Shown here piece after piece: positions 796-1,569 of a stretch of 11,919 nucleotides of DNA (position 1 is its first letter; every line of letters starts with the position of its first letter). The position numbers were made by a program, and so were the translations under genes. Location: the NCBI GenBank assembly GCA_007123655.1, contig SKKR01000362.1:1-11919 (forward strand), given 5' to 3'. The notes beneath the pieces were generated by a model. It worked only from the letters and a program-made list of their open reading frames with translations. It did no database searches and had not been told where the DNA came from. The stretch is from Thermomicrobiaceae bacterium. Lineage in GTDB: Bacteria > Chloroflexota > Chloroflexia > Thermomicrobiales > Thermomicrobiaceae.

Positions 796-1569
796 ATGCG
801 CCCCATGGCGGATCAAGAACAGACGCGAGGACGGCGGGAGCGGCGCGGCCGCCGGCGACAGCAGCGAGAAGCACACGAGGCCCAGCGCCGGAAGCGCTAC
901 ATGATCGGCGGCGGAGTCATTGCCGCCGTCCTGCTGGTAGTAGTTGCGTTGACTGTTATCGAGCTGATCGGCAACGACGATGACGACGTTGACGCCTTCC
1001 CGGCTGTGGTCGCGTCGGAAGCCGGCCACGAAGGGATCCCCAGCGAGCCATACTTTCTGGGAGACCCGGACGCGCCGGTCCATCTCATCGAATGGAGCGA
1101 TTACCAGTGACCGGGCTGCGGATTCTTCGCCCGTGAGGCGAAACCACAGCTGGTTTCCGACTACATCGAAGAAGGACTGGTCTACCTGGAGTATCGCGAT
1201 TTTGCCCATCTCGGTGAAGAAACCATTCGGGCCGCAGAGGGTGCCGCCTGCGCGGGCGACCAGGATGCCTACTGGGATTTCAACGAAACGCTTTATCAGA
1301 ACCAGCATACGCCGCCGATGAACGACGGCGGGTACGCGGACAGCCGGCTCATTCAGATAGCGGACGAGCTCGGTCTGGACGTCGATGCGTTCGAGTCCTG
1401 CCTGGATGACGGCGAGTATCGCGACCAGGTGGAAGCGAGCACCGCTGAGGCGCAGGATACCGGGATCTCCAGCACTCCGGAGTTCCAGATTAACGGACGC
1501 ATCGTGCAGTGGGATGGCTACGAGGCGCTCGCGGCCGAGATCGAGGCCGAACTGGACGGCGCGGATTAG
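796..1569 (+). CDS. DsbA/thioredoxin-fold oxidoreductase, probable selenoprotein (UGA at 1108-1110 read as Sec)
   Basis: The gene encodes a 257-residue thiol oxidoreductase of the DsbA / Thioredoxin_4 type if the in-frame TGA at 1108-1110 is decoded as selenocysteine. From ATG 796: an arginine-rich cytosolic N-terminus (residues 11-34), one transmembrane helix (about 36-58), an acidic linker, then the thioredoxin fold facing outward. Residues 98-110 read IEWSDYQ-U-PGCGF, where relatives have a CPxC active site, so the centre is Sec105-Pro-Gly-Cys108. Downstream are RDFAHLGEE, the AAEGAACAGDQDAYW helix typical of the family, and the cis-proline loop STPEFQINGR. Coding character is unchanged on both sides of the TGA. 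Without readthrough the upstream piece is a 104-residue stub lacking the fold, and the downstream piece has no start until ATG 1318. ATG 805 is an alternative start; AAAGG lies at 788-792. Likely role: disulfide exchange outside the membrane. A nonsense mutation is less likely (see findings). Confidence 0.85.
1108..1153 (+). promoter_or_regulatory. Candidate bacterial SECIS element directly after the Sec UGA
   Basis: The mRNA just after the UGA can fold into two stacked stems. The lower stem pairs 1111-1118 (CCGGGCUG) with 1147-1153 (CAGCUGG): seven pairs including one G-U, with G1113 bulged. An asymmetric internal loop (1119-1125 and 1143-1146) leads to a perfect six-pair upper stem, UUCGCC at 1126-1131 with GGCGAA at 1137-1142, closed by the apical loop CGUGA (1132-1136). 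The loop begins 21 nt after the UGA and its second base is G, followed by U. As known from E. coli fdhF and surveys of bacterial selenoprotein genes, SelB binds such an element inside the coding region, with the loop roughly 16-37 nt from the UGA and a G in its first two positions. The pairing was found by eye; no free energy was computed. Confidence 0.7.

Follow-up and report, generated by a model that had tools for sequence, protein, structure and literature searches.

We analysed a window of 11,919 nucleotides from a Thermomicrobiaceae bacterium of the Chloroflexota (assembly GCA_007123655.1, contig SKKR01000362.1), in which the gene at positions 796 to 1569 very probably encodes a membrane-anchored DsbA-like selenoprotein of the Thioredoxin_4 family, called Sec-DsbA in the following. 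"The window" refers to this whole stretch, and all features given below lie on its forward strand. With TGA read as a residue, the frame runs from an ATG start to a TAG stop over 257 residues and has exactly one internal stop, the TGA at codon 105 (1108-1110). It stands in the context DYQ-U-PGC, where CxxC would have its first Cys (here U-P-G-C), and we read it as selenocysteine (Sec) based on the sequence itself, the homologous column in relatives and a hairpin common to many of them. The sequence-only reading of this DNA had claimed that one TGA interrupts a DsbA-fold gene at the first CxxC cysteine, that both flanks encode the family, that no frameshift is needed and no start follows shortly after, and that gene callers would split the gene into pieces of 104 and 83 residues. 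All of this agrees with our results. Both piece sizes match the list of open reading frames (ORFs), the Pfam domain PF13462 (residues 86-250) spans the TGA with the anchor before it and Cys108 and the cis-Pro loop after it, and the next in-frame ATG, GTG or TTG is the ATG at 1318, 70 codons downstream. A frameshift as the cause of the interrupted gene was considered and rejected, the frame being intact over 796-1569 without one.

The protein matches PF13462 (Thioredoxin_4) with 109.7 bits against a cut-off of 23.2, and less strongly PF01323 (46.3 bits, cut-off 25.6). It is predicted to have the DsbA fold, with UxxC at the start of a helix. Thr227-Pro228 (1474-1479), invariant in the alignment, belongs to the active-site cis-Pro loop typical of DsbA and thioredoxin, where the cis form of Pro228 would follow from family membership. 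The resolving Cys108 of UxxC (1117-1119), Cys152 (1249-1251) and Cys202 (1399-1401) are each invariant in 24 of 24 aligned rows, and Cys152 and Cys202 are candidates for a second disulfide. A single hydrophobic segment at about residues 35-59 (898-972), predicted to be the membrane anchor and covered by a helix of residues 13-59 in the structure model, is preceded by an Arg/Lys-rich tail, which we take to be cytoplasmic by the positive-inside rule. Sec-DsbA cannot be a lipoprotein, because it has this membrane helix and its residues 1-104 contain no Cys and therefore no lipobox. In structural alignments it shares 24-27% identity with BdbD of Bacillus subtilis (3eu3/3eu4) and TsdA/DsbA of Corynebacterium (4pwo, 7unn), all of which have Cys, not Sec, in the active site. 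The fold, UxxC, the cis-Pro loop and the anchor together suggest that the protein is probably a thiol-disulfide oxidoreductase that works outside the cytoplasm and attacks through Sec105; the designation "selenium-dependent disulfide enzyme" used in the sequence-only reading would fit such a protein.

The best NCBIfam match is NF041057 (Rcas_1661 family thioredoxin-like (seleno)lipoprotein), with 147.2 bits and an E-value of 5.9e-43 over residues 86-251. Two reviews describe this model as covering a DsbG-like selenoprotein family with UxxC (PMC13188914) and equate the family with pfam13462 (PMC9312934). The UxxC motif and the Thioredoxin_4 domain are common to both, but the window protein falls below the family cut-off of 190 bits, as do its congeners (155.3 and 153.8 bits), and it carries a membrane helix in place of the lipobox. 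By sequence it is thus a relative of NF041057 that lies outside the cut-off.

We searched 150 related genomes, 129 of which have a match to the Sec-DsbA protein, and collected 71 loci: the 30 best-scoring ones (L006-L035), 20 with a reported stop inside the match, 19 without such a stop, and L120 and L121. These gave 72 rows covering the active site, after L119 was excluded from the counts, since it probably lies on the contig of L007, which is equally long, and one of the two rows of L121 was dropped as not covering the column; L118, of 10 bases, was not used. L121, a Peregrinibacteria record, is a Cys relative with its match in two pieces, the second of which covers the active site. The homologous column is TGA in 23 rows and TGC or TGT in the other 49, and never TAA or TAG. 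The alternation between TGA and Cys codons that the sequence-only reading had asked for is thereby observed, although this 23:49 split does not represent prevalence because 20 loci were picked for a reported stop. Score was the only criterion for the 30 best loci, and in eight of these the column is TGA. The stop coincides with the Sec column in 15 of the 20 stop-picked loci, and in the other five (L080, L083, L084, L085 and L098) the column is TGC or TGT and stops occur only close to where the alignment ends. L013, one of the 30 best, is a similar case, its column being TGC and its sole TGA lying at the extreme end of the match. L093 carries an extra TAA six codons before its TGA.

The two nearest orthologues, from the same genus with 75% and 78% identity, both have the TGA and no other internal stop, so a search for further inactivating mutations in close homologues finds none of this kind. 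When the three congeneric orthologues are compared pair by pair, the non-synonymous difference (pN) is 0.08-0.12 and the synonymous difference (pS) 0.59-0.65 after the TGA, compared with 0.16-0.19 and 0.66-0.79 before it. The part after the apparent stop is therefore constrained at least as much as the part before it, and the codons after the TGA are by this measure under purifying selection. A tree made by a quick method, with the Sec column and the hairpin codons removed, requires at least nine changes between Sec and Cys, five of them forced by starred branches. One genus mixes the two forms, with TGA in G005 and TGC in G010 and G013, and a single genome (G025) has three different UGA-containing DsbA-like genes (L023, L079 and L081).

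A hairpin resembling the apical part of a bacterial selenocysteine insertion sequence (bSECIS) lies at 1126-1142, 21 nucleotides after the UGA. It has a stem of 6 base pairs, UUCGCC/GGCGAA (1126-1131/1137-1142), and the loop CGUGA (1132-1136), with a longer form at 1114-1151 and an energy of -16 to -18 kcal/mol. It satisfies the bSECIS constraints given in PMC13188914, i.e. a loop of 3-9 nucleotides, a stem of 4-16 base pairs, G in the first two loop positions, a spacing of 16-37 nucleotides and an energy of at most -7.5. We dropped hairpin energy alone as a criterion; a free search downstream gave strong hairpins in some Cys rows too (L105, L034 and L080), and because of this we adopted a test at fixed position. 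Counting the U of UGA as 1, positions 25-29 form a 5-nucleotide loop in the TGA rows. Of the 23 TGA rows, 20 have GU at 26-27, 17 have CGUG at 25-28 and 15 have an uninterrupted stem of at least five pairs, whereas the corresponding numbers for the 49 Cys rows are one, none and none; 22 loop positions were tried, and any other gave at most three such rows in either group. Eleven rows have C-G and another 11 U-A at the pair 23-31; at the pair 22-32, 14 rows have G-C, five G-U and four A-U. The case for the hairpin rests on this common position and on the pair changes, not on the window sequence alone. L023 and L081 keep the GU loop but have an uninterrupted stem of three pairs only. Three further TGA loci (L082, L092 and L094) have no hairpin at the common position, and the free search gives each of them a hairpin of other spacing with -8.9 to -10.0 kcal/mol. 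L082 and L094 form a second group of DsbA-like UGA genes with the active site U-T-A-C, and this group probably uses another form of bSECIS.

The genome of the window encodes a tRNA-Sec (72.6 bits, anticodon TCA), a full-length SelA above the cut-off (520.8 bits, contig C561), and the last 377 residues of SelB (the 3' 60%) at the end of contig C434, with 82% identity to the SelB of a congener. The claim that the host decodes Sec is supported by tRNA-Sec, SelA and the C-terminal part of SelB, while SelB is partial and SelD was not found over its cut-off. SelD is present in all four congeners searched, each time with one TGA, and 18 of the 19 genomes with a SelD match over the cut-off (21 genomes searched) hold one TGA. 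There are eight SelD loci, and in all seven that were translated (L130-L136) the UGA lies within CAG-U-A(S/G)K, which matches the UxxK motif of SelD in PMC13188914. The SelD of these relatives itself appears to be a selenoprotein. Across the 150 relatives, SelB was found in 112 and a match to the tRNA-Sec model over the cut-off also in 112, the latter figure including some at 47-52 bits, which could represent long-arm tRNAs of another kind. In the 21 genomes holding the 23 TGA rows, based on tables read by eye, SelB is over the cut-off in 16, or 17 counting the split SelB of the window genome, and tRNA-Sec exceeds 55 bits in 14.

Based on these data we consider it highly probable that 796-1569 codes for a 257-residue anchored extracytoplasmic oxidoreductase of the DsbA/BdbD type, with the active site U-P-G-C and the UGA decoded as Sec. 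The UGA at 1108-1110 would be decoded by tRNA-Sec and SelB with the hairpin at 1126-1142 as the guide. In the enzyme, Sec105 would attack and Cys108 resolve, the cycle passing through a selenenylsulfide, and Sec-DsbA may in this way make, break or rearrange the disulfides of exported proteins.

Several observations weigh against this reading. The SelB of the window genome is below its family cut-off because it is split by the contig end, and no SelD over the cut-off was found in the window assembly, which has 594 contigs and is 70.6% complete. Two genomes with TGA rows, G114 (92% complete) and G147 (72%), have neither SelB over the cut-off nor tRNA-Sec above 55 bits. Two of the five genus genomes, both 84-87% complete, show no orthologue, with no match in G002 and only a weak one in G003. 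The hairpin in the window taken alone is weak evidence and not rare. Among 1000 synonymous recodings, 75 meet the bSECIS model and 35 reach the native energy, and plain folding gives z-scores of only -0.8 to -1.5. After correction for kinship there are only five supported independent pairs, of which three speak for the association of hairpin and TGA, none against and two show no difference (p 0.25), and 5 of 23 TGA rows are without the fixed-position hairpin as scored in that test. The evidence is all at the level of sequence and consists of the UGA position, the Sec/Cys alternation, the common hairpin, selection on the codons past the UGA, the sel genes and the predicted fold; Sec insertion, the location outside the membrane, the catalytic direction and the recycling route are deduced from it.

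The alternative that survives best accepts the selenoprotein but makes it a reductase or a peroxidase-like enzyme rather than a disulfide-forming DsbA, which we regard as possible though on the unlikely side. A strongly nucleophilic selenol would suit reduction, and searches of the genus gave neither of the oxidases VKOR and DsbB. For VKOR, which re-oxidises DsbA in the membrane, none of the five genus genomes (G000-G004, 71-98% complete, two of them about 98%) had a match, either to the Pfam profile or, at E-values up to 1, to a profile built from the VKORs of neighbouring families, and none was seen in L006-L008 or L119. DsbB was found neither in these five nor in any of the 21 genomes searched. 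On the other side, a DsbD/CcdA electron supplier for a reductase was not found in the five genus genomes either, nor in G005 and G010, and relatives of the same family, three UGA forms included, adjoin VKOR. Direct neighbourhood to VKOR is frequent for this gene in the other families of the order, and overall VKOR adjoins it in 21 of the 30 best loci, i.e. 18 of 22 Cys genes and three of eight Sec genes (Fisher p 0.03, a value that ignores kinship and includes some short flanks).

With VKOR, DsbB and DsbD/CcdA all not found in the genus, Sec-DsbA is therefore without a recognised partner there. The protein is the only match to its own sequence in G000, G001 and G004, and in G000 also the only PF13462 match. 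The DsbA of Clostridium, an example from another phylum, is a cysteine enzyme. It is reported to be able to work without DsbB or VKOR, recycled by small thiol oxidants such as glutathione disulfide or ergothioneine (PMC12453122), and the window protein may behave likewise. Because of this report, recycling of the genus Sec-DsbA by small oxidants is plausible by analogy, and a new partner is equally possible. Most likely, in our view, the enzyme is an oxidase or isomerase for which small oxidants or an unrecognised partner would take over the recycling role of VKOR or DsbB. We also considered that the single Sec-DsbA replaced the DsbA-VKOR pair, selenium letting O2, peroxide or a small disulfide re-oxidise the enzyme directly so that the membrane oxidase was lost. 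This is a speculative idea to which we give little weight. Its support comes from the sole match in the three gene-bearing genomes, from the failure to find any of these partners in five of five genomes and from the lower share of Sec genes beside VKOR; against it, three Sec forms keep an adjoining VKOR, the rows are related, some flanks are short and an unrecognised partner could exist.

It is quite unlikely that the UGA is decoded as cysteine or kept as a stop, e.g. under regulation that yields only a short membrane peptide at scarce selenium. Cysteine insertion at Sec codons does occur in other organisms, and partial termination is compatible with the data, but the hairpin and the sel genes indicate Sec, and the three congeneric orthologues all retain TGA though relatives use Cys. 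We consider it highly improbable that a decaying pseudogene or a sequencing or assembly error put the stop into an ordinary CxxC DsbA gene. The window does come from a fragmented assembly (594 contigs, 71% complete); against such an origin, the TGA recurs at the same codon in the two congeneric orthologues (75-78% identity), non-synonymous change past the TGA is low even though synonymous sites are close to saturated, TGA is the only stop ever seen at the column in the 72 rows, and environmental relatives on other contigs begin after the same point. General reassignment of UGA to an ordinary amino acid, as in a Trp or Gly code, would also give an in-frame TGA with the frame conserved on either side, but it is extremely unlikely because TGA terminates 7 of the 12 window ORFs, several just past a complete Pfam domain (QRPTase_C, Hist_deacetyl), homologues have Cys at the column instead of Trp or Gly, and a tRNA-Sec with anticodon TCA is present. 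The lack of internal stops in the other window ORFs is no evidence on this point because they come from a stop-to-stop list.

For the reading as a Sec-containing DsbA there is precedent, as the sequence-only reading had noted. DsbA-like and DsbG-like selenoproteins with UxxC have been in print since 2005, with bSECIS predicted after the UGA in the same Sargasso Sea set (PMC1088965). DsbA-like selenoproteins (COG2761/PF01323, UxxC) were counted in surveys of 2006 and 2016 (PMC1794560, PMC5029168), the former with three selenoproteins in Chloroflexi, and reviews of 2022 and 2026 list the type (PMC9312934, PMC13188914). Sec for Cys in UxxC is what these proteins share with ours; the accessible parts of these sources name neither the window genus nor a case free of a partner oxidase, and the stronger domain of the window protein is PF13462. 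PMC5330540 yielded a figure legend concerning AhpC, and PMC12013277 has no mention of DsbA, Dsb, Chloroflex, Thermomicrob or Sphaerobacter. We found no earlier report of the genus protein in the open-access literature searched, which is no proof of absence. The mechanism is thus already known, and what is new is the lineage, the repeated switching between Sec and Cys together with the hairpin that the Sec forms share, and the lack of a recognised partner.

Around the gene, a putative ribosome-binding-like AAGAAAGG at 785-792, spotted by eye, ends 3 bases 5' of the ATG at 796. A promoter and terminator scan of 600-1700 found none, and Rfam and tRNA scans of the window gave no hits. The upstream neighbour at 117-689 encodes a DnaJ-domain protein by domain search, which is free of Cys and has a hydrophobic segment in its C-terminal part. 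This gene stands upstream of Sec-DsbA in all three congeneric loci and was not seen in the flanks of other homologues, which reach up to 1.5 kb and are often shorter; many of the stop-picked and stop-free loci have flanks of a few hundred bases, where neighbours are hardly covered.

The finding also bears on how such enzymes appear in databases. In a protein-database search, 11 of the best 15 matches (of 300) are fragments of 142-145 residues that cover 50-55% of the query. The five fragments inspected start after the UGA and are without the active site, in line with the claim that gene callers shorten such genes, and 5 of the 11 are labelled "protein-disulfide isomerase". They come from environmental relatives on other contigs and begin past the same point, with gene calls at GTG or ATG starts unlike the ATG at 1318 of the window. 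Automatic annotation thus cuts the enzyme at its catalytic residue, and because of this many relatives are stored as fragments without the active site. For the family, the switches between Sec and Cys, at least five of them forced and one within a genus, provide natural matched pairs for what selenium adds to DsbA. For the genus, which has no known recycling partner, partner-free oxidative folding by a selenoenzyme becomes directly testable.
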